Assembly: GCA_021851735.1 (NCBI GenBank)
Contig: JAJZCD010000006.1
Span: forward strand, 1-45,492
Source of the DNA: a bacterium
GTDB taxonomy: Bacteria > Patescibacteriota > Saccharimonadia > Saccharimonadales > UBA4665
Direction: 5' to 3'
Length of the DNA stretch: 45,492 nt
A model generated the notes under the pieces. That model had not been told where the DNA came from. It made no database searches and saw only the letters and a list, made by a program, of their open reading frames with translations. Of this stretch, positions 3,157 through 24,358 are shown one piece after another. Position 1 is the stretch's first letter. Each line of letters starts with the position of its first letter. The position numbers and the translations under genes are program-made.

Positions 3157-4119
3157 TTATGCAACGAATGGGGTCTTCATTGCTAATATCATTGACCAGC
3201 CGTGTTCTTCGGTTATAGCTGCTAGCTGATTGTATGTGCTAATAGATTTCAGTTCTCCGGCTTGATTTATGGCGTACACAAACTTAAAATCTTTTATAAT
3301 TTTATTGTAGAATTTCTCGGGGTTTTTATATGATGCAGGAGTGAACTCTAGAAGTAGTTTCATATTTGGGCTCTGCTTGATAATTCGTTTCATTCCAGAG
3401 TATGCAGCTTCCTCAAATCCTTCAATGTCAACCTTTAGAATGTCAATGTGGTCAATTTTGTACCTTAGGCAATAGGAATCAAGGGTGGTAACCTTAACTG
3501 TTTTGCTTCTAGTGTCAGATATGTCAAAGCGTTCTCGGCTGCCTGTTACCTGGGAGTCGGAAAAACTTGAGCTGCCCCAATAATCGCCCATGAGTTGTAA
3601 CTCTAGGCTGGAATCCTTATCGCCAATGCCAATATTTGATATGGTAGCAATGTCCTCCATGCCATTCACTGCAACAGACTTACGGATGTAAGGCATAAAG
3701 GTGTTGTTCGCCTCTATAAAATACACTCCGCCTTCGTGTTCTACAGTTGTGCCTGCTACTATACCGAAATAACCAAAGTTTGCACCCACATCAATGACGA
3801 TGCTATCTCGTTTTATAAGAGATCGATACACTTTAGTTATTTCCGGCTCCCATATTCCATCAAGCATCAAATGCGGCGCAACGGATATATCTCTGGTATC
3901 CACGTACATTTTTTGGCCAGTAAAAAGTGCAGTGAGCGCTTCAAACTCACCGGTTCTGACCGTAAGTCCGTTCTTTAAACGATGAATAAAGAATAATGCC
4001 TCGTTAATCTTCTGTGTGTGGTCATCTAATGTGTTAATTATCTGTGTTTGTGTGTAAGATCTTGTCAATGTACGTTTTGTCCTACCCGCCAACCCCCTAA
4101 ATTTTGGGCTTTTTTGCAT
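3157..4119 (-). CDS. FkbM family methyltransferase (paralog of 774..1724)
   Basis: VIDVGANFGYFGIVAG and HIDILKVDIEGFE motifs; start chosen at MQKSPKFRG, preceded by GAGGGA. Confidence 0.9.
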   Translation of the reverse strand: MQKSPKFRGLAGRTKRTLTRSYTQTQIINTLDDHTQKINEALFFIHRLKNGLTVRTGEFEALTALFTGQKMYVDTRDISVAPHLMLDGIWEPEITKVYRSLIKRDSIVIDVGANFGYFGIVAGTTVEHEGGVYFIEANNTFMPYIRKSVAVNGMEDIATISNIGIGDKDSSLELQLMGDYWGSSSFSDSQVTGSRERFDISDTRSKTVKVTTLDSYCLRYKIDHIDILKVDIEGFEEAAYSGMKRIIKQSPNMKLLLEFTPASYKNPEKFYNKIIKDFKFVYAINQAGELKSISTYNQLAAITEEHGWSMILAMKTPFVA

Positions 4120-4341
4120 GTGTCCCTCGCTTTTAATGTCATCTCTTACTATAGTGTAATTACACAAGAAAATATAGTTATCTGGTCATGTAGCTTGGGC
4201 GTGATATTGTATTGAGAATACGGTGCTACGCTAGTCTAAACTCGCTATATGATTCGTCGTTCGTAGTTTAACTGAATGATTGCCTGGGTTATTTTAGCAA
4301 CTTGAATAAAAAAAGAAGTATTTATGCCGAGTCAATGTTAT

Positions 4342-11794: not shown

Positions 11795-13231
11795 CTACTT
11801 GCCGGCAATTACTTCAGTGTTTGCTGAGATCTTGTTATCCCATTCCACCTCGGGGAATTTGTGCAAAAGATCTGACATGTAAGATCGGAGCTTCTCGTAG
11901 CCTGCTTCAGTTTTCGACTCCAACTTAATGCCTAAGTATGGGCCGTTCTGTGAGTAACGGACGACAAACATGCCGTCCGGCAGCTCCAGACGCACACCAT
12001 CGCCAGCCCGCTCGTCGTCTACAACTTCTATAGCTTCCGGGAAGTCCTTCTTCAAAATTGGTACCAGCTTTTCCACAAGTGCTACTTTCTTATCGTCAGC
12101 GCAGGCAAGCTTGACTTCGGGGCTGGAGACGTATTTCGGAATAGCCTCCAGTGCTTCAGACAAGCTCTGGTTGGTCTCGGACAAGTAGTGCAGGATGCGC
12201 ATGGTAGAGTAGAGACCGTCATCGTGGTTATAAAAGTCTGCCGAGAAAAAGAAGTGACCAGAAAGCTCACCAATAAAGGCTGCTTTAACCTCTTGGTTCT
12301 TCTTCTTTAGGAACGAATGGCCGGTACGCCACATGAACGGTTTGCCGCCGTTTGCTGTGATAGTCTCGGGCACTGCCTTGGAACAAAATGTGTTAAACAT
12401 GATTTTGGAACCTGGATGTGCGCGCAACACGTCGGTTGCAAAAATAGCTACTAATACGTCATTCCAGATCAGAGTACCTTGATTATCAACAATACCAATG
12501 CGGTCACCATCAGCGTCATATGTAAAGCCAACATCGGCTTTTGCATCAAGTACTTCTTGACGGAGCCGTTCCATGACAGTTTTTTCAGTAGGGTCAGCTA
12601 TACCCATCGGGAAGCTTGAGTCAACTGTAGTGTTGTGTTCTATGACCTCGCAGCCAGCCTGACGGAGTATGGCGGGTGCGATATCTCCGGCAGTGGTACA
12701 ACTAGGGTCGATAACTACTTTGAATTTTTTACGTATCGGGAGACGCTTAATGAGGTCGGCGAAATAGGCTGGCCGAATGTCCTCTTGGCGTACGGTACCG
12801 GGTTTTTCACCTTGCTCGTAATCTTCCGCTTCAACCAGGCGCTTGAGTTCCAGCATTCCCTCGGTTACGAGCGTCTCGGAGAAATCATTGGCAAATTTAA
12901 ATCCGTTAAATTCCGGCGGATTATGACTGGCACTGACGTATACGCCGCCCCGGCGCTTGAGGTAGTGCTGCGACCAATAAAACATACCAACCATTTGCAT
13001 ACCGATATCGATAACATCTACACCCGTCCACGACAATCCTCGAATGAGTGCTTCGCTGTACGCCGGGCTGGTAGCCCGGCTGTCGCGTCCGACAACAGCT
13101 TCAGTGATACCGTTCCGCTTGAGATATGTACCAAATGCTTTACCGAGGTGCTCGGCCAGTTCAGGGCTCAATTCACTGCCCACTAGACCGCGAAGGTCGT
13201 ATGCTCTAAAGATATTCTGACTAACTTTCAT
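11795..13231 (-). CDS. manB: Phosphomannomutase/phosphoglucomutase
   Basis: VYVSASHNPPEFNGFKF catalytic Ser loop, DADGDRIGIVD metal loop; SD AAAGGAGG before ATG. Confidence 0.95.
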   Translation of the reverse strand: MKVSQNIFRAYDLRGLVGSELSPELAEHLGKAFGTYLKRNGITEAVVGRDSRATSPAYSEALIRGLSWTGVDVIDIGMQMVGMFYWSQHYLKRRGGVYVSASHNPPEFNGFKFANDFSETLVTEGMLELKRLVEAEDYEQGEKPGTVRQEDIRPAYFADLIKRLPIRKKFKVVIDPSCTTAGDIAPAILRQAGCEVIEHNTTVDSSFPMGIADPTEKTVMERLRQEVLDAKADVGFTYDADGDRIGIVDNQGTLIWNDVLVAIFATDVLRAHPGSKIMFNTFCSKAVPETITANGGKPFMWRTGHSFLKKKNQEVKAAFIGELSGHFFFSADFYNHDDGLYSTMRILHYLSETNQSLSEALEAIPKYVSSPEVKLACADDKKVALVEKLVPILKKDFPEAIEVVDDERAGDGVRLELPDGMFVVRYSQNGPYLGIKLESKTEAGYEKLRSYMSDLLHKFPEVEWDNKISANTEVIAGK

Positions 13232-13290: not shown

Positions 13291-15120
13291 TTATTCTACG
13301 GTCACTGATTTAGCAAGGTTGCGCGGTCGATCCACATCGTAGCCTTTCGTAACGGCAACGTAGTAGCTGAATAGCTGCATGGCAATAGCAACGAGCAGCG
13401 GGCTAGTCTGATCAAGTGTCTCAGGTATGTATATAACATCATCGGCGAGCCGTGCAATTGTTTCATTTCCTTCAGTCGCGATGGCAAGAACCTTGCCTTG
13501 ACGGGCGCGGATTTCTTCTATGTTGCTGTAAGTTTTTTCGAGCAGCGGTGAATGCGTCGCAATCGCAAACGTAGGGAAATCCGGATCGATCATGGCGAGG
13601 GGCCCATGCTTCATCTCGCCAGCAGCATATCCTTCAGCGTGAATGTAGCTAGTCTCCTTAAGCTTGAGGGCCCCTTCCAATGCGCATGGATAGCCGTAGC
13701 CGCGTCCCAAAAACATGAAATCCCGGTAGTGCGCATATTTCTTGGCAAGGCGTTTCATGCTTGCCGCCTGGGCTAATATAGTTTCGGCTTTCTTGGGTAG
13801 CGCATCAAGTTCGGCAAGGAGTGGTCTATACAGCTTGCTCGCACCGTTGGAAAGATGTAGGGCGATCAGTGTCAGTACGGTGACCTGAGCGATAAATGCC
13901 TTGGTGCTAGCTACGGCCTGCTCAGGCCCGGCATGACAATATACGCCAGCATCGGTCATGCGTGCGATTGTGCTCCCAACGGTATTTACGACGCCGAGTC
14001 TCAGACAACCGTAGTCTTCCACCTTTTTAAGTGCGGCGATGGTATCTGCAGTTTCTCCCGATTGGCTAATTGCCAGTAGTGCCGTAGAACGTGAGAATGG
14101 CTCGTTCCGGTATTTGAACTCACTAGCCAGCTGAACCTCTACCGGTATGCCGGCAATCTCTTCAATGAGGTACTCACCGACTAGCCCGGCATAGTACGAG
14201 GTACCACAGGCAACAATGACGAGGCGGTCAATGTAGCGTAGTTGACTCGTAACGTTCTCAAGCCCGCCCAGTTTTGTAGTACTGCTTTCAACGCGTATAC
14301 GTCCCAAGGTGGCTGAACGTAGTGTATACGGTGCTTCATAGATTTCCTTAAGCATAAAGTGGGCGTAGTCTCCCTTGCCTGCTTTGGTGGCGTCATAATC
14401 GAGCACCTCGGCTTTGCGGCTGACAGGCAGGGAATGTTTAAAATCTTTTATGTGATATGTGCCGTCACGTTCTGCACGTATGAACTCGTAGTCGTTCAGG
14501 TATACGACACGGCGAGTATGCTCCATGACCGCCGAAGGATCACTCGCTACGATACACATGCCGTCACCTACGCCCAGTACGAGCGGACTGGAGAGACGGG
14601 CAGCATAGAGTACGTCCGGTTCTTCCGCTGTTATAACGCCAAGTGCGTAGGCGCCACGTAGCTGCCCAAGCGCTTGTTCAAATGCTTCCTGGAACGTTTT
14701 ACTGGAACGGCGATATAAATCGATGAGGTGTGATACGACCTCGGTGTCGGTATCCGATACAAATATGTAGCCCTGTGCGCGCAAGGAGTTCCGGAGTTCT
14801 ACGTGATTCTCGATAATGCCGTTGTGCACAACAGCGATAGTTTGGTCACTATTGTAATGCGGATGCGCGTTTTTAATCGTGACGCCGCCGTGTGTAGCCC
14901 ATCGGGTGTGGCCAATAGCGGTCATTGCTGTTTTGTCATCTCCTAATGCATCCCTGAGCGCCTGTACGCGGCCAACTTGTTTGTTCGTTATTATTGTCTC
15001 GCCGTCTAAGAATGCGATGCCCGCTGAGTCGTACCCACGATACTCCAGTGCTGTTAGTCCGTTCAGTACAGCATCGATAGCCCGCTGTTGGCTGCCGATA
15101 TATCCTACAATTCCACACAT
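13291..15120 (-). CDS. glmS: Glutamine--fructose-6-phosphate aminotransferase (isomerizing)
   Basis: MCGIVGYIG N-terminal Cys nucleophile; SIS domains; C-terminus DVDRPRNLAKSVTVE; SD GGAGGA. Confidence 0.98.
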   Translation of the reverse strand: MCGIVGYIGSQQRAIDAVLNGLTALEYRGYDSAGIAFLDGETIITNKQVGRVQALRDALGDDKTAMTAIGHTRWATHGGVTIKNAHPHYNSDQTIAVVHNGIIENHVELRNSLRAQGYIFVSDTDTEVVSHLIDLYRRSSKTFQEAFEQALGQLRGAYALGVITAEEPDVLYAARLSSPLVLGVGDGMCIVASDPSAVMEHTRRVVYLNDYEFIRAERDGTYHIKDFKHSLPVSRKAEVLDYDATKAGKGDYAHFMLKEIYEAPYTLRSATLGRIRVESSTTKLGGLENVTSQLRYIDRLVIVACGTSYYAGLVGEYLIEEIAGIPVEVQLASEFKYRNEPFSRSTALLAISQSGETADTIAALKKVEDYGCLRLGVVNTVGSTIARMTDAGVYCHAGPEQAVASTKAFIAQVTVLTLIALHLSNGASKLYRPLLAELDALPKKAETILAQAASMKRLAKKYAHYRDFMFLGRGYGYPCALEGALKLKETSYIHAEGYAAGEMKHGPLAMIDPDFPTFAIATHSPLLEKTYSNIEEIRARQGKVLAIATEGNETIARLADDVIYIPETLDQTSPLLVAIAMQLFSYYVAVTKGYDVDRPRNLAKSVTVE

Positions 15121-15135
15121 GTATGAATCCTCCGT

Positions 15136-15714
15136 TTAATACAGTCCGGCAGTGCCAGCCATAATACTCTTTAATACTACGCTTAGTTGGTCCTTGTCTG
15201 TAAACTGAATTGCCCTTAAGCCCATATGGCGTGCCGCTATAACGTTAACCTCATTGTCATCGATAAAGACGGTCGTCTCAGCGCGCGCTCCAAGACGTTG
15301 TAGCGCTAGGTTAAATATGGCGGGATCGGGCTTCGCGAGGCCGGTTTCCGATGAGATGATAATCTCGTCAAAAAGTTCACGCACTGTATGCATACTGGCG
15401 ATACGGTTGAATTCCTCGGTGCAGGTGTTCGACAAGAGGCCAATACGTGCGTTTTGTTTGAGTGTAGCGATCAAACGAACAACTGCCTTATTGAGTAAGT
15501 GGGGCGATGTAAACGCTCGCGTTAGATCAGTAACACATTCGTCACTGATACGTGCCAGGTACGCAAGGTATGTATCATAGGGGATTCTACCAGTATCAAG
15601 TAGGTACGCGGCTCGAGCTACTGCGGGTTCTAAGTGGGGGTGTCTGCGTAGCAATAAGTGTTGTGGATCATCGCATATGACGCCGAAAAAATCAAAAAGG
15701 ATGGTGTCATGCAT
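15136..15714 (-). CDS. HAD-IA family hydrolase (putative sugar-phosphate phosphatase)
   Basis: TILFDFFGVICDD motif I, GLLSNT motif II, KPDPAIF motif III, FIDDNEVNV motif IV; internal start overlaps the upstream stop by 8 bp (ATGCATGA). Confidence 0.88.
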   Translation of the reverse strand: MHDTILFDFFGVICDDPQHLLLRRHPHLEPAVARAAYLLDTGRIPYDTYLAYLARISDECVTDLTRAFTSPHLLNKAVVRLIATLKQNARIGLLSNTCTEEFNRIASMHTVRELFDEIIISSETGLAKPDPAIFNLALQRLGARAETTVFIDDNEVNVIAARHMGLRAIQFTDKDQLSVVLKSIMAGTAGLY

Positions 15715-17197
15715 AGCGTGTCGTTTCCTGTAAGTCGCGAATAATTTGGTACATGCGCCACTGCAAGCGTACCTGAGCCAGGTGGCTACTTTGCTTATCT
15801 GGGAAACGGTTACTGTCCCATGCGAAGTAGTCAGTATCGACCATGTCATTCATGAAGCGCATTGCCAGCTCAAGCGCGATGTGTTGGGTGGCGAGGAGAG
15901 CGGTGGCGTAAAAGGTGGCACTGTTTGCCTCAGGTCGTGCCACTGTTCGATAGCCTTCAACGATGGCGTGTAGCGTTTCAGCTGCGGGTGCATGATCCGC
16001 CGCAAGGCCGTTTGCAAGCGTGGCGCGCAGCAGGTCGCCTATATCGAGCCAGATGGATCCCTGCATGACTGTGTCGAAGTCGATGTAGGTGTAGGGCTTA
16101 CCGTCGCGGAATAGTATGTTCGTGAGCTGCGGGTCGCCATGGATAAGCTGTGGTTTTTCGAGCGGCAGTTTGGGAAGCGCGCGATAAGCGTGCAGTAGAT
16201 CATTCGCAAGATCACGTGCCTCAGAATTAGGCAAACGGTGTTTTAATCCTTCTAGATGCCCGGCGTAGTAAGCGGTGTCATGAAAATGCTCAATACCGGA
16301 AGTAGGCTTGTAGTCAAGCGTAGCAAGTGTGGTATGTAGCTTACCGAGCAGGGCCCCTACATCATATAGACTCTCCTGACTAAGTACGCTAGGCACACCG
16401 CCGTCTGATTCTATGAAACTAAGCTGTCGCCACAGTCTGTCCAGCTGATCGCGGTGCCATAGTGCTCCATCGACAGTAGGGATAGTTTGCGGCGTATCCC
16501 ACCCGGCTACTGCCAGTTTGCCGGCTACGGCCGCATTGTCCGCTACCAATGCTTGATCAAAAGCCGCGTTCAATTCCTGCAGTATTCTCCGCTGCCCACG
16601 CGAGTTGGCTAAAAACGTACGGTTTATGAGACCATTACCGAACGAGCCGGTGGTAGTTGTGGTATCGCCAAAGAAACCTCGTATAACATCTTGTGGCACT
16701 GCAGTCGTTATTATTCGCTCCGGCACGGTAGCTGTATAATGCCCGACGGTCCCGGGTATTTGGGTCGCTCCCATACGTTCGTAGAACTTTATAGCGGCAG
16801 TCCGGCTCGTCTCTGTATTGAGTGTGAGTTTGGCGAGTCCATTGTCTCGACACCACTGCAACATATGTTGCCATGCAATTTGGGCGGCACCTGTGCCACG
16901 AGCTTCTTCGGTTATGACAAAGCCATTCAACTCGGCTGACCAAGCCTGCCAGTGCTGTTCAATGATACGTTGTAAGACAAACGTACCGATGATGTGTTCG
17001 TTTCGTTCGACGATGAACATGCTACGCTCTGGGTCCGGCCCTGGGCCCATGAAGTACTTTTGGAACGTGTCTTCTGGCATGGCCCACGGAGAGAATGACG
17101 CGTCAAGGGCTGGCATACAATCGCCGATTGCCTGCATAACTGACTTGTCATATTCTGAGACAATCCCAACGGATATATGCGGTTTTGTTTCTGCCAT
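15707..17197 (-). CDS. Bifunctional fusion: N-terminal GNAT acetyltransferase plus C-terminal APH/NahK-like (N-acetylhexosamine kinase-type) domain
   Basis: GNAT core FVITEEARGTGAAQIAWQHML...AAIKFYERMGA; kinase GNGLINRTFLANSRGQRRILQELN, EHFHDT, LIHGDPQLTNILF, YIDFDTVMQGSIWLDIGDLLR; start at ATG after CAGGAA. Confidence 0.85.
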   Translation of the reverse strand: MAETKPHISVGIVSEYDKSVMQAIGDCMPALDASFSPWAMPEDTFQKYFMGPGPDPERSMFIVERNEHIIGTFVLQRIIEQHWQAWSAELNGFVITEEARGTGAAQIAWQHMLQWCRDNGLAKLTLNTETSRTAAIKFYERMGATQIPGTVGHYTATVPERIITTAVPQDVIRGFFGDTTTTTGSFGNGLINRTFLANSRGQRRILQELNAAFDQALVADNAAVAGKLAVAGWDTPQTIPTVDGALWHRDQLDRLWRQLSFIESDGGVPSVLSQESLYDVGALLGKLHTTLATLDYKPTSGIEHFHDTAYYAGHLEGLKHRLPNSEARDLANDLLHAYRALPKLPLEKPQLIHGDPQLTNILFRDGKPYTYIDFDTVMQGSIWLDIGDLLRATLANGLAADHAPAAETLHAIVEGYRTVARPEANSATFYATALLATQHIALELAMRFMNDMVDTDYFAWDSNRFPDKQSSHLAQVRLQWRMYQIIRDLQETTRYA

Positions 17198-17270
17198 GTA
17201 CGGTTCCTGTTTAGTACCCGTATTATTCGATGTTCCGCTCAAAAAGTATAATTTTTTGGCAACAATTTAT

Positions 17271-17284
17271 TGACAAATATACCG
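17271..17284. promoter_or_regulatory. 14-bp direct repeat TGACAAATATACCG, copy 1, overlapping a TTGACA -35 box
   Basis: Perfect repeat with 17314..17327, 43 bp apart. Confidence 0.7.
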
Positions 17285-17305
17285 ATGTTCACCATAGTTT
17301 GGCAT

Positions 17306-18067
17306 GTGGAAAATGACAAATATACCGTTCAGAAACTACTCATTGAACTAGGACTGCAAGCGAGTGACGCTGAAACGTATTGGGCACTCTTAAATTTGGA
17401 TACCGTATCAATCCGCAAGGTTGCAGAACAAAGTGGTATTAATCGCGGTACAACCTACGAAGCGATTAAACGCTTGCTCGCAGTGGGGCTCGTTGCTACG
17501 CGGCGGAGCGGGCAGCGTGAATACTTTACCGCCGAATCACCTGAAAAAATCTACGATCTTATACGCGATAAACGTAAAGCACTGTGGCAGGTCCAACAAA
17601 AAGCCCGAACACTCGTACCGGAGCTGTTGGCTAAAAAGGCTCGGCCGATGGGACGGCCGTTAGTCCGCTACTACGAGGATGACGATGGAGTCGTAGCAAT
17701 CCTAAAAGACGTGCTGCATACCTGCGGTCAACTTACTGAGCCGGCGTACTACGCGTACTCGTCCCGGCCATTGCGGCAGTACTTGTATCGTAAATTTCCT
17801 GAGTTTACCGACCAGCGAATTGCTGAAGGTATTGCAGTGAAAGTAATTGCAGTAGGCAAGGGTGGTGATCCAACCGCAATTAGTGAGCGCAAGTGGCTGG
17901 CTGAGCCAGATAAAGCGCACGTTTCGAGTTATACGCTCATCTACGGAGACAAGGTTGCTAGTATTTCTATCTCGGCAGATGATACGCCATATGGGGTAGT
18001 TGTGGAAGACACCGGTGTAGCTGCTATGCAGCGGTTACTGTTTGAGCAGTTGTGGCGTATTCTCTAG
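17306..18067 (+). CDS. TrmB family transcriptional regulator
   Basis: LLIELGLQASDAETYWALLNLDTVSIRKVAEQSGINRGTTYEAIKRLLAVGLV winged HTH; GTG at 17306 is 7 nt after a CATAGT -10 with TTGACA 17 bp upstream; longer TTG (17270) and ATG (17285) starts are possible. Confidence 0.82.
   Translation: MENDKYTVQKLLIELGLQASDAETYWALLNLDTVSIRKVAEQSGINRGTTYEAIKRLLAVGLVATRRSGQREYFTAESPEKIYDLIRDKRKALWQVQQKARTLVPELLAKKARPMGRPLVRYYEDDDGVVAILKDVLHTCGQLTEPAYYAYSSRPLRQYLYRKFPEFTDQRIAEGIAVKVIAVGKGGDPTAISERKWLAEPDKAHVSSYTLIYGDKVASISISADDTPYGVVVEDTGVAAMQRLLFEQLWRIL
17314..17327. promoter_or_regulatory. 14-bp direct repeat TGACAAATATACCG, copy 2
   Basis: Perfect repeat of 17271..17284; at the start of the TrmB-like gene. 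Confidence 0.7.
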
Positions 18068-18669: not shown

Positions 18670-19779
18670 CTAGGATTGTTTCATGACGGTACGTATGTAC
18701 CGTGCCATACTGCGCTGAAAGTGTTCCTTTGCAAAACGTTTGGCAAATGTGGCTATGGCGGTGCGGTTATACCGTTCGGGTTTGAAGGTTTTAAGTACGC
18801 TCGCCAGCGATTCTGCAGTTGGCTTGGTGAAAAACTCGCCGGTTTTGCCAGGTATGACGTAGTCGAGTGCGCCGCCAGCTTTGTAGGCAATAACGGGCGT
18901 GCCTGATGCTAGGGCCTCTACAGGAGTGACACCGAAGTCGTCTAAGCCAGGGAAAATGAACGCTTCAGCGCTAGCCATTTCTTGCTCGGTGATGGCATCG
19001 GACGCCTTGCCTAAGAAAGTAATATCATGACCAGCCAGCTTGCGTAAACGTTGATGGTCGGGTCCATCACCAATAACTGTTAGCAGTAACTCCGTTTGGT
19101 TACACGCTGCTACGGCAATGTCAAATCGCTTGTAAGGAGTCTGTCGTCCGGCTATAAGGAACCCGTCACGAGGTAAACGCCGGTTCTCGGGTTTTTGGAA
19201 ACGCTCCAGGTAAACTGGTGGATGTATAACGGTACTGCTACGACCGTAATACTTTTTAATTTGGCTCTGTATATGCGTTGAGTTAGCAATCATGTAATCG
19301 GGTCGTTGTGCGGCCTTGTAGTCCCATGCTCGAAGCGGTGCAACGAGCAGGCGGAGTCCGATGCGTGCTAACCAATCGAATATGCCAAAGCCTGGTTCTC
19401 GTAAGTATTGCTCGTAGCGGCTCCAATAATAATGAGTGGGGGCGTGGCAGTAGTTTATGTGCAGGGTACCTTCGGGAACATGTATCCCTTTTGCTTCGGC
19501 GCCGGAGCTGCTAATGACTAAGTCATAGCCTGTAAAATCTAAGTGCGTAAACCACCAAATGCGGAACAAGGGGATAAATTTTCGTATAAATCCTAGCGGC
19601 TGTAGCCAGCCGGTGCGTACTTGGTTATCGAGCCGCTGACGCCATTCGCGCGTGCAGTACGATGTGTAAATCGGTGCGTCCGGGTACATTTTATGTAGCT
19701 GCTCAACCACCAGCTCGGCGCCACCGCCTACCAACCAATCATGAACGATAGCGACTTCGAGCGGTGGTCGTTGTTTCAC
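18670..19779 (-). CDS. Glycosyltransferase family 4
   Basis: AIVHDWLVGGGAELVVEQL N-terminus; AFIFPGLDDFGVTPVEALASGTPVIAYKAGG. Confidence 0.94.
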   Translation of the reverse strand: MKQRPPLEVAIVHDWLVGGGAELVVEQLHKMYPDAPIYTSYCTREWRQRLDNQVRTGWLQPLGFIRKFIPLFRIWWFTHLDFTGYDLVISSSGAEAKGIHVPEGTLHINYCHAPTHYYWSRYEQYLREPGFGIFDWLARIGLRLLVAPLRAWDYKAAQRPDYMIANSTHIQSQIKKYYGRSSTVIHPPVYLERFQKPENRRLPRDGFLIAGRQTPYKRFDIAVAACNQTELLLTVIGDGPDHQRLRKLAGHDITFLGKASDAITEQEMASAEAFIFPGLDDFGVTPVEALASGTPVIAYKAGGALDYVIPGKTGEFFTKPTAESLASVLKTFKPERYNRTAIATFAKRFAKEHFQRSMARYIRTVMKQS

Positions 19780-21206
19780 CGGGCGCCCCGTCGATCAAAA
19801 ACTGCTCGAATGGTTTTAAGCAAGATCACAGTATCGAGCCAAAAACTCCAGTTTTGCACATAGTATAAATCTAATTTGCGACGTTCCTCAAAACTAATAT
19901 CGCGACGCCCTGACACGACTGCCAGCCCAGTAACACCAGTTTTTACACTGAGCATCAGATTTTTCTTATCGTAGTTACTGAGCTCAAACGGCTCAAGGGG
20001 GCGTGGCCCTACGAGACTCATATCACCCTTTACTACGTTGAGTAGTTGCGGTAGCTCATCCAGGCTGGTCTTGCGCAGGAACCGCCCCAGACGAGATATA
20101 CGCGGATCATGCTCAAGAAAGTCACCGTTGGCGCGGAACTGCTTGGCGAGTTCGGGACGTCCCATTTTTGCGAATCCTTCTTCGGGAGTCATGCGGTGAT
20201 AGGCGTGGAGCTGGGTGCGAAACTTGTACATGCCAATCTCGGTGCCAAATCGTGAGAGCCGTTTATTGCGCCATATTGGATCGCCATGATCGAAGACAAT
20301 CATAATGCAGCAGATGATGAGAATTACCGGTGAGGCTATCAGGAGCAAAATGCTGCCAAAGATAATGTCAAACAGCCGTTTGGCGATTCTTCCCCACCCG
20401 AATAGTGCTGTCTGTCGAACGTTGATGACTGGGATCGAGTTACGGAACAACTCAACGTCAATATTACCAACGAACAGTTCACTGTTGCCGGGCACAAAGC
20501 GATAGCTGACATGGTGTTCCTGGGCGTAGGTTAGGATCTCGGCATTACGATTCTCATCGGCGTACAATTCAGTTTGAATAATACTGTGCAGGTTGGCGGG
20601 GGCGCTGTCTATAAACGTGCTGAATGACGGGTACGTCGCAATGTTGTGCGGACTAGCTTGTCGCCTGTCTCCCACTACTGCAACCACCTTATACCCCGAG
20701 TGCCGGCTGTCCGATAGTGTAGCAATGAGCTCTTTACTTATGTTGCTTGTGCCGACGATGGCAACATTCGTAATGCCTATATCAAATCCGAATAATGCTA
20801 TACGGACTAGGCGGGCAAGTGAACGGAACAGTACTAAAAGCACGAAGCTGAACAGGAATCCATAAATGGGGACGAGTTTTGCCGGGAAAATCGGTTTGAC
20901 AGTTATGAAGTTCCAGAATATGACGAATAGCATACCTATGAAGGATCCAACGAGTAATCGTCCAACTTCGCTAAAGCGTCGTTCGTAAATGTTGCTGTTG
21001 TATAAACCAAGTAATGCGAATATTAAAATCCAGAATGACAGTATAGCCAAAAAAATATAAAAGTAAGCGCGGCCGCTTATGGGGTGAGCGACTGGAACCG
21101 AACTATGTGCACGCACTACAAAGGCCACAACAAAAGCTGCTATTAATGCTAAAAAATCACCAATAACAAGAAAAAGATTATATATGAGTGAGGCATTTGA
21201 CTTCAT
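19776..21206 (-). CDS. Polyprenyl glycosylphosphotransferase (sugar transferase)
   Basis: N-terminal TM helices; [49 protein letters not shown]. Confidence 0.95.
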
Positions 21207-21231
21207 AGGTTATATAATGATTGTAACACTT

Positions 21232-22548
21232 ATGAAACAGCACTCTACACGCGTAGCTAAACTAGCCGATTATCTTGTGATGATAATTCTAGTCGTAGTA
21301 CCCTTCCAGGGCTTTGTAACAGTTTGGGGACAGTCGTTGGTTGGTCACTATACGTTGCTCCGTCTATGGGACGAAGTATTATTTCTAATCCTATGTGTGA
21401 TTATTGTGTACTGGCTGTATAGAGATCAAACGTTGCGTCGGTGGTTTATGGGAAGCATGCTGGTGCGGTTAATAGCAGTATACGTCGGGCTGACGCTGTT
21501 ACTAGGAATCGTTGCGCTCGCAAAGAGCGAAGTATCCCTAAAGGCACTTACCTACGGAGTTCTGGTAGACCTACGGTTTTTTGTGTGGTTTTTGGCGGCA
21601 TTACTGGTGGCGCAACGCTCACCATTTTTAGCGCGAACATGGCCCCGAATAGTGCTTATACCGGCTGCCATCGTCGTTATCTTTGCTAGTTTACAATACA
21701 CGGTTTTACCACATAATTTTTTGACACATTTCGGGTATAACGCCCACACCACAATTGCCCCTATTGAAACTATTAACCACAACAGCAAATACATACGGGC
21801 GCAATCAACGCTGCGTGGGGCAAACCCACTCGGTGCGTATTTAGTGCTAGTGCTGTCTATACTAGGTGCGCTATTCTTTCGCGGTAAACGCAAGCTAGCG
21901 TGTGCTATATTTGGCGCGGTTGCGTTGTTTGCGCTATACGCGAGCGGATCACGGAGCGCCTGGATCGGGACGCTGCTGAGTTTAGCGGCTCTGGTATGGC
22001 TGCAACTGAAAAGCTATCGGCAGCGTTTGTACTTAGGGGTTGCAGCTGCTGTGTTAGCGGTAGCTGCGGTCGGTGGATTTTTACTGATACACAACAATGT
22101 CAGTGTGCAGAACGAAGTGCTACACACCCAGGCTCATTCAGCTATCAAGATCGGCTCTGACCAGGCTCACATCACCGCGCTTAAAAAGGGCATTAGCGAT
22201 GTGCTACGTCAGCCATTTGGTGATGGGCCGGGTACAGCAGGGCCGGCTAGCGTATATAACAGGTTGCATCCGGCACGTATAGCCGATAATTACTTTATAC
22301 AAATCGCCCAGGAGCTTGGCTGGTTTGGGTTGGCGTTATTCTTGACTATTGCCGTATTGGTCACCCAGGAGCTGTACCAGCGAATCGGCCAGTCACGATT
22401 AGCATTGGCACTGGTTGTCGCACTGGTTGGTATTTCATTCGTCTGCATGTTGTCACACGCTTGGACGGATGACACATTGGCCTATTTGTGGTGGGGACTG
22501 GCGGGTATAGTGGTAGGCTCAGTTGTGCCAGAGCGGGAAAAAGCATAA
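21232..22548 (+). CDS. O-antigen ligase/polymerase-like (Wzy/WaaL) membrane protein
   Basis: About 11 TM segments; LRGANPLGAYLVLVLS, ASGSRSAWIGTLLSL, DNYFIQIAQELGWFGLALFL. Confidence 0.85.
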   Translation: MKQHSTRVAKLADYLVMIILVVVPFQGFVTVWGQSLVGHYTLLRLWDEVLFLILCVIIVYWLYRDQTLRRWFMGSMLVRLIAVYVGLTLLLGIVALAKSEVSLKALTYGVLVDLRFFVWFLAALLVAQRSPFLARTWPRIVLIPAAIVVIFASLQYTVLPHNFLTHFGYNAHTTIAPIETINHNSKYIRAQSTLRGANPLGAYLVLVLSILGALFFRGKRKLACAIFGAVALFALYASGSRSAWIGTLLSLAALVWLQLKSYRQRLYLGVAAAVLAVAAVGGFLLIHNNVSVQNEVLHTQAHSAIKIGSDQAHITALKKGISDVLRQPFGDGPGTAGPASVYNRLHPARIADNYFIQIAQELGWFGLALFLTIAVLVTQELYQRIGQSRLALALVVALVGISFVCMLSHAWTDDTLAYLWWGLAGIVVGSVVPEREKA

Positions 22549-22556
22549 GGCCCCAC

Positions 22557-23018
22557 ATGATCGCCTGGGTCGTAGCACGCCTGTTCGACGGGTCAGCCGA
22601 ACGGGAAAGGCAGATCAAACAGTTTATAAAATATATGGTGGGTGGCAGTTTGTATTTCTGGGTAGGGTATACTGTATTCGCTCTATGCTACAGTGGGCTC
22701 CAGTGGAACTGGCTACCGTCTAAAATCATGGCCGACGCTATCGGTTGGACGCTAAACTATTTAGTGCAGCGGTTTTGGGCGTTCAGCGATCAGGTGCATC
22801 TCAGTGAAATGCAGCATGCTGGCCGGTACGTATTCATAGAAAGTATTGGCTTCGTGCTCGATTACGCCATTATCTGGGGCCTGAAATCTATCGGCATCAC
22901 GCCGTACATTGGTTTCTTTATATCGGCCGCTTTCTTTACGGTCTGGTCATGGCTCTGGTATAAGTATTGGGTTTTCCCTGAAACCGGAGGGAAGAAGACA
23001 GCGCAGCCGAACCTGTGA
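22557..23018 (+). CDS. GtrA family protein
   Basis: IKQFIKYMVGGSLYFWVGYTVFAL...ADAIGWTLNYLVQRFWAF...WSWLWYKYWVFP. Confidence 0.85.
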   Translation: MIAWVVARLFDGSAERERQIKQFIKYMVGGSLYFWVGYTVFALCYSGLQWNWLPSKIMADAIGWTLNYLVQRFWAFSDQVHLSEMQHAGRYVFIESIGFVLDYAIIWGLKSIGITPYIGFFISAAFFTVWSWLWYKYWVFPETGGKKTAQPNL

Positions 23019-23141
23019 GGAATACGATACGTTGTGGCTAACTATTTTGAGCATGACGCAGGGTTGTTTAAGTGAGGCCTTGGATTACACCCACTGGCAT
23101 TCTGTGCAAACAGTCGTGCCAAGCTTTGCTAATATAAATTC

Positions 23142-23687
23142 ATGAATAGCATTACCATAACCTGCAAACATGACACTGTAACCGAGCGAAATGCAGCCAA
23201 GCGGCTTGAGAAGCTATTAGGAGCGTATGATATATCGAGGTTCTACTTTACATATTCGGTTTTAATAGAAGACCGGGCCATACCCCACGATCTGCCGGCG
23301 CTGACGCTTAATTCTTTTCCTTATTCTGACGAGAATATCGTATTAGAAACGTTTCTCCATGAGCAGTTGCACTGGTATCTAGAGTCTGGCGATGAACGGG
23401 TCAAATGGTCCGTAGCCCAGGCAGTTAACGAGCTACGAGTGAAATACCCGCATGCGCCATGGGGTTATCCACTTGGCTGTAAAGACCTTGATTCAACGTA
23501 CCTTCATTTGATCCTGTGCTATCTTTCCAACAAAACAATGCAGGATGTTGTTGGGCTAGAACCAGCGGCACGAGTCCTATACTATTTGCAGAACCATCAT
23601 TACCTTATGGTATTTAGAACTGTAGAAAGAGATAACGAATATCTCGCGGCACTAGTGGACAAGTATAAATTACACGTTACCGGGTAA
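23142..23687 (+). CDS. Hypothetical protein with an HExxH putative zinc metallopeptidase motif
   Basis: ETFLHEQLHWYLES contains HEQLH. Confidence 0.6.
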   Translation: MNSITITCKHDTVTERNAAKRLEKLLGAYDISRFYFTYSVLIEDRAIPHDLPALTLNSFPYSDENIVLETFLHEQLHWYLESGDERVKWSVAQAVNELRVKYPHAPWGYPLGCKDLDSTYLHLILCYLSNKTMQDVVGLEPAARVLYYLQNHHYLMVFRTVERDNEYLAALVDKYKLHVTG

Positions 23688-23848
23688 CGTAGTGGCCATG
23701 CAGTGAAAATCAGTAAAAAGGGTGCACACGTCATTGGTCTTGTTGCAACATTTTGTATGCGGATAGAGTGATGCCCTCAAGAAGTTTTCCATTTTGTCGC
23801 TAACGCAGTTTTGTAGTGCTCTATATACAGGTGCGCTACAATATACAT

Positions 23849-24358
23849 ATGAACGAAAAACAAACAGCTAGTGCGATCGCGGCAACGCCAACCGTACGAC
23901 CAACTAAAAAACAGAAAGAATTACTAGCGTATATAGAAGCATTTATTGCTGAACATGGCTACAGTCCTAGTTACCGCGAAATTATGAACGGGCTGCAGTA
24001 TAGCTCAGTAGCAACTGTAGCGTTGCACGTTAATAGCCTGATAAAGCGCGGTCACCTTCGCAAGCGTGACCACAGCGCCCGTTCGCTCGAAGTCGTCACG
24101 CACGGTATATCTACAGACAAGCTGCTCAAAACTAATATTGTCAAAGCAGACGAAGAAAAGTGGTTCGTGCAGAAGGTTGAGGGATTCTTTGCAGAAGCAG
24201 AGGCGTCGCTACTGCCGACAGACGGGCAGCTTGAGCATATACGGGTGCTTCTTGAAGCATTGCGGGTGCTGGGTATGGACGGTGCTGCCCAAAGTTTTAT
24301 AGAACGTTTTGGCGCACTTAAAGCACGTCAAGCTCCAGCGCCTGCGGTAGACCAGTAA
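23849..24358 (+). CDS. LexA-type winged-helix DNA-binding protein lacking the S24 autoprotease domain
   Basis: TKKQKELLAYIEAFIAEHGYSPSYREIMNGLQYSSVATVALHVNSLIKRGHLRK; remainder shows no Ser/Lys peptidase motifs; TACAAT 6 nt before ATG. Confidence 0.8.
   Translation: MNEKQTASAIAATPTVRPTKKQKELLAYIEAFIAEHGYSPSYREIMNGLQYSSVATVALHVNSLIKRGHLRKRDHSARSLEVVTHGISTDKLLKTNIVKADEEKWFVQKVEGFFAEAEASLLPTDGQLEHIRVLLEALRVLGMDGAAQSFIERFGALKARQAPAPAVDQ

Follow-up and report, generated by a model that had tools for sequence, protein, structure and literature searches.

We analysed a window of 45,492 nt, the whole stretch of DNA under study, from a Saccharibacteria-like genome that is 97.7% complete in 53 contigs. 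The minus strand of positions 15707–17197 reads as a single open frame of 496 codons plus a stop, and the plus strand of the same interval contains stops throughout. Two Pfam models matched the encoded protein above their gathering cut-offs: PF00583 at residues 53–143 (E = 6.7e-15) and PF01636 (APH) at residues 186–405 (E = 1.2e-16). A fused ORF with these two domains far exceeds chance. These data confirm the claim of a preliminary description that one ORF joins a GNAT acetyltransferase to an APH-fold kinase, and all the kinase motifs quoted in that description were found in the fused ORF. The features of the locus are listed in Table 1.

Table 1. Features at the locus, with window positions, strand and basis of assignment.
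Feature	Position	Strand	Basis
Phosphoglucomutase/phosphomannomutase, PgmG-like	11795..13231	-	59 nt after glmS; not GlmM by cut-off
glmS, glutamine--fructose-6-phosphate transaminase	13291..15120	-	TIGR01135, 756 bits, above cut-off
HAD-IA hydrolase, YihX/epoxide-hydrolase-N-terminal-phosphatase-like	15136..15714	-	PF00702; YihX and HAD-1A3 models below cut-off; alignment
Fused GNAT-kinase ORF, 496 aa (P0001)	15707..17197	-	Open frame; PF00583 and PF01636 above cut-offs
NahK-like APH-fold kinase domain, aa 162-496	15710..16714	-	PDB profile search, NahK alignment, model
Fusion junction: out-of-frame TAATAA (16708-16713), in-frame GTG (16699-16697)	16697..16720	-	Sequence reading
GNAT acetyltransferase domain, aa 1 to about 161	16715..17197	-	Pfam; alignment with three unfused GNATs; AlphaFold model
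TrmB-family regulator, divergent from operon	17270..18067	+	PF01978; homologues adjoin glmS or kinase elsewhere

The order on the minus strand is GNAT-kinase, HAD hydrolase, glmS and PgmG-like mutase. The HAD gene (ATG at 15714) overlaps the 3′ end of the fusion gene (stop at 15707) by 8 nt, and glmS, preceded by GGAGG, lies 15 nt beyond the HAD gene. Judging from this spacing, GNAT-kinase, HAD and glmS look co-transcribed. Motif I of the HAD protein lacks the +2 Asp that is usual in phosphatases; YihX also lacks it. The preliminary description placed the fusion next to glmS; the HAD gene in fact intervenes, but the argument from context for aminosugar metabolism is supported by the operon and by the cassette described below. 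A promoter-like site (TTGACA-17-CATAGT) at 17270–17298 overlaps the TTG that is listed as the start codon of the TrmB ORF, suggesting that the true start is probably farther inside the ORF; in a promoter scan, such sites were not in excess over shuffles. Elsewhere in the window, a block encoding an O-antigen-ligase-like protein, a sugar transferase (PF02397), a glycosyltransferase and glmS (18670–24358) is common to many Saccharibacteria (loci L067–L084), and this block often adjoins dTDP-rhamnose-type or ManC/PMM genes. Two methyltransferase-like ORFs (774–1724 and 3157–4167, minus strand) share KMYVDTRDIS.APHLMLDG.WE and are likely a duplicated pair.

We compared the kinase domain with proteins of known structure. 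In a phmmer search of the PDB, NahK matched at 4e-19 and the second-best kinase at 0.02. A profile built from seven homologues scored NahK at 121.7 bits, followed by YtaA at 30.8 bits and aminoglycoside kinases at 19–22 bits, and three further homologues searched singly each found NahK first by a wide margin (75, 50 and 101 bits). When the AlphaFold model of the domain (pLDDT 89.6) was searched with Foldseek, the best six matches were six NahK entries (2.5e-17), followed by homoserine kinase. Homoserine kinase, which gave weak NCBIfam matches for two relatives, was rejected as an identity, always falling far below NahK in the PDB searches. The window kinase is ~27% identical to NahK and conserves the catalytic Asp355 (NahK D208), the metal Asp373 (D228), Arg447 (R306) and Tyr457 (Y317). 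Nine homologues aligned to NahK are invariant at D208, N213, D228, D230, D243, R306, D310, Y317 and F318. We take R306, Y317 and H31 to be sugar contacts of NahK, residue type and number agreeing with the alignment; the His31 position is Leu190 in the window protein.

We also built a tree of the nine homologues, NahK, two further phosphotransferases, and SrkA and ThiK of E. coli. Each homologue grouped with NahK against SrkA/ThiK with moderate support (73/94), although B. longum NahK and two Bacteroidota proteins formed their own clade (100/99), with the window kinase outside it. Since NahK is the closest relative but its own clade excludes the window kinase, we describe the domain as NahK-like and not as an established orthologue. 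The Bacteroidota relatives are annotated as "aminoglycoside phosphotransferase family", yet they adjoin GH2 glycosidase or SusCD-type genes. The PDB profile, Foldseek and the tree agree with the earlier proposal that the kinase is closer to NahK than to antibiotic kinases. Sequence and model, then, place the kinase with NahK and not with the aminoglycoside kinases, and its predicted activity is ATP-dependent phosphorylation of GlcNAc or GalNAc at C1.

The GNAT domain has an intact acetyl-CoA motif (RGTGAA), and its AlphaFold model (pLDDT 87) has the GNAT fold. Its profile matches are generic GNATs, and the model superposes best on AAC(3)/meta-AAC0020 and generic GNATs, not on GNA1. No specific likeness to GNA1 was found by profile and structure comparison, GNA1-type entries being weaker than many generic GNATs. 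The domain is non-specific, and neither its sequence nor its fold points to one substrate. A bifunctional aminoglycoside-modifying enzyme like AAC(6')-APH(2'') would share the order of acetyltransferase then kinase, and would fit the superposition of the GNAT model on meta-AAC0020 and AAC(3)-Ia at 2.5–2.7 Å. Nonetheless, we consider this identity extremely improbable: no NCBIfam APH model matches at E ≤ 0.01, the AAC(6') group E model reaches 18.6 bits where 140 are required, the kinase is far nearer to NahK than to any APH in the PDB, the gene lies in a chromosomal operon with glmS, and no entry of a plasmid collection matched over 80% of the protein. With no APH/AAC equivalog model above cut-off for the fused ORF, aminoglycoside resistance was rejected.

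Among 393 genomes of the class, the fusion occurs only in the window's genome. Unfused kinases of the same group are encoded in six class genomes (G204, G266, G232, G357, G073 and G069); in G232, G204 and G266, GNAT, kinase and HAD are separate overlapping or abutting genes in the window order, and the cassette is present in 4 of the 393 genomes. A scan of the genome collection with a four-row alignment found nothing beyond the three known Saccharibacteria. In G357, the kinase gene starts 2 nt after the end of a glmS-like gene; together with the window, this gives two different arrangements that couple kinase and glmS. The chance of two of eight kinases adjoining glmS in 1000-gene genomes is ~1e-4, a crude and lenient figure given that the HAD gene intervenes in the window. 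A TrmB-type regulator neighbours the kinase not only in the window but also in G232 (35% identity) and G661 (25%). In G028 (73%) and G007 (65%), where no cassette accompanies glmS, a homologue lies next to glmS or close by, and the regulator thus links kinase and glmS. The cassette is not always accompanied by glmS and a nucleotidyltransferase: by the models used, G204 has the cassette but neither a glmS over cut-off nor a PF00483 nucleotidyltransferase. Similarly, G661 has the kinase and TrmB, but no glmS, MurA or PF00483 nucleotidyltransferase. These sequence comparisons indicate that the cassette is rare and conserved, and that the window fusion is one form of it. A viral origin was rejected: a search of IMG/VR found nothing, and the two matches to phage-labelled contigs, which carry no annotation, were weak. 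On a Methylobacterium plasmid (L138, 1314–2705), a GNAT gene directly precedes a phosphotransferase gene whose product falls outside the NahK-like group.

At the fusion junction, TAATAA lies out of frame directly after ...TVPER, where the GNATs of unfused relatives end, and the GTG before the kinase core is a possible kinase start. A one-base indel, whether a recent mutation or an assembly error, would split the fusion into two genes, as in relatives. The fusion is known from one contig, and it may stem from a single-base change, either a very recent one or one introduced by the assembly. Because an out-of-frame stop could well fall near the joint by chance, the TAATAA is only suggestive. Together with the GTG and the two-gene arrangement of the cassette relatives, it speaks for an assembly or sequencing artefact in an organism with separate GNAT and kinase genes; we assign this explanation a small probability, because the other window genes that were read are intact, making an indel in this ~80-nt stretch a priori unlikely, and the joint has no long homopolymer. 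The operon argument is independent of the fusion.

To place the cassette in the cell-wall sugar pathway, we searched for GlmU and GlmM. GlmU over cut-off was absent from the window's genome, 40 relatives and seven cassette or kinase genomes, whereas the search gave matches in 14 of 14 control genomes; full GlmS over cut-off was present in 24 of the 40 relatives, and GlmU over the curated cut-off in none of the 40. In the window's genome, the GlmU search matched only GalU-like nucleotidyltransferases, the acetyltransferase half of GlmU had no match, and no GlmM was found over cut-off, the sole match being the PgmG-like gene of the window. By contrast, MurA is present at full length in this genome, under the strict cut-off, and a MurC-like ligase is encoded in the window, indicating that UDP-GlcNAc is needed. 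TM7x has been stated to be unable to make UDP-GlcNAc (PMC10768705). The cassette may stand in for the seemingly missing GlmU, but since it is rare while GlmU is missing generally, it does not serve the lineage as a whole in this way. Another nucleotidyltransferase encoded in the window's genome (L013; G000:C21:8845-9609) scored 120 bits with the archaeal GlmU N-terminal half and 118 bits with GalU, and is a candidate enzyme for the final step towards a UDP-sugar.

We therefore weighed several roles for the cassette. In our best reading, whose probability falls a little short of even, the fusion is a bifunctional amino-sugar enzyme whose gene is co-transcribed, as one module, with those of a HAD phosphatase and GlmS, the substrates and step order being as we infer them. 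GlmS would make glucosamine-6-P, the GNAT domain would N-acetylate glucosamine-6-P (or glucosamine), the HAD protein would take off the 6-phosphate, and the NahK-like kinase would add phosphate to the anomeric hydroxyl, converting the N-acetylhexosamine into its 1-phosphate. From this, a GalU-like nucleotidyltransferase whose gene lies elsewhere would form the UDP-sugar for peptidoglycan or the surrounding surface glycan. The chain GlcN-6-P → GlcNAc-6-P → GlcNAc → GlcNAc-1-P is the simplest account of the operon. This reading is supported by the NahK margin, the invariant residues, the cassette order, the glmS coupling, TrmB, the absence of GlmU over cut-off, the presence of MurA and the published statement on TM7x. 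Against it count the 27% identity to NahK, the position outside the NahK clade, the non-specificity of the GNAT domain and the HAD motif I; the gene content of G204 and G661 and the rarity of the cassette are weak points of the GlcNAc-1-P chain. That the GlmS operon encodes every step from glucosamine-6-P to GlcNAc-1-P independently of GlmM and GlmU, possibly allowing host-independent cell-wall aminosugars, is more doubtful, although conceivable. Our best reading shares its logic with a proven route in Pseudomonas, that of MupP (a HAD phosphatase), AmgK (an anomeric kinase) and MurU (PMC5371407); there, MupP and AmgK carry out on MurNAc the kinds of step that end the chain above. The earlier aminosugar interpretation is supported in part; it missed the HAD partner, the separate-gene cassette elsewhere and the absence of GlmU.

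A serious rival, which we nevertheless judge unlikely, is salvage: the cassette would capture environmental or host GlcN, GlcNAc or MurNAc and phosphorylate it at C1, HAD and GNAT would deal with those forms that are phosphorylated or de-N-acetylated, and the glmS linkage would be incidental or regulatory. This would explain why G204 retains the cassette without glmS, and G661 the kinase and TrmB without glmS or MurA; it is also consistent with the glycan-uptake (SusCD-type) or GH2 genes beside the related Bacteroidota kinases, and with the role of Pseudomonas AmgK in salvage (PMC5371407). However, the window cassette shares an operon with glmS, which encodes a de novo enzyme, the G357 kinase is coupled to a glmS-like gene, and GlcNAc salvage requires no acetyltransferase. 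Less probable still is that the cassette provides an unusual N-acetylated hexose-1-phosphate to the surrounding surface polysaccharide rather than GlcNAc to peptidoglycan. A sugar transferase, a glycosyltransferase, ManC and PgmG are encoded around the cassette, and glmS within a glycan locus is conserved across Saccharibacteria, but the cassettes of G204, G266 and G232 lie outside that glycan block.

Other bacteria serve as hosts to Saccharibacteria, of which one studied member reportedly cannot make UDP-GlcNAc yet builds peptidoglycan from it. If, as in our best reading, the cassette supplies GlcNAc-1-P without GlmU, it would show how some Saccharibacteria escape UDP-GlcNAc dependence. On the substrates proposed here, the fusion would also be an example of an acetyltransferase-kinase protein that belongs to amino-sugar metabolism, although its kind is annotated as aminoglycoside phosphotransferase.

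Four known systems bear comparison with the window protein. Bifidobacterium NahK/LnpB (PDB 4OCJ, 4WH1) has the same fold, catalytic Asp and metal Asp as the window kinase, and shares the D-x-D-T-x-M-x-G-S...D-x-G-D signature and the R306 and Y317 positions; the window kinase differs in its sequence divergence and clade, its fusion to a GNAT domain, the Leu at the His31 position and its context, which is glmS, HAD and TrmB rather than lacto-N-biose catabolism. AAC(6')-APH(2'') likewise has a GNAT domain followed by an APH-fold kinase, whereas the window protein has no APH/AAC equivalog match at cut-off, a NahK-like kinase and a chromosomal biosynthetic context. Relative to the GlmM-GlmU route, the proposed route would reach the same product from GlcN-6-P without a mutase, with a GNAT in place of the left-handed beta-helix acetyltransferase and with acetylation preceding C1 phosphorylation. 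Lastly, AmgK-MupP-MurU of Pseudomonas (PMC5371407) combines a HAD phosphatase, an anomeric kinase and a uridylyltransferase to bypass part of the de novo route, a likeness in which AmgK is compared by logic, not by sequence; the route proposed for the window would add a GNAT and GlmS, and would act on GlcN/GlcNAc instead of MurNAc.
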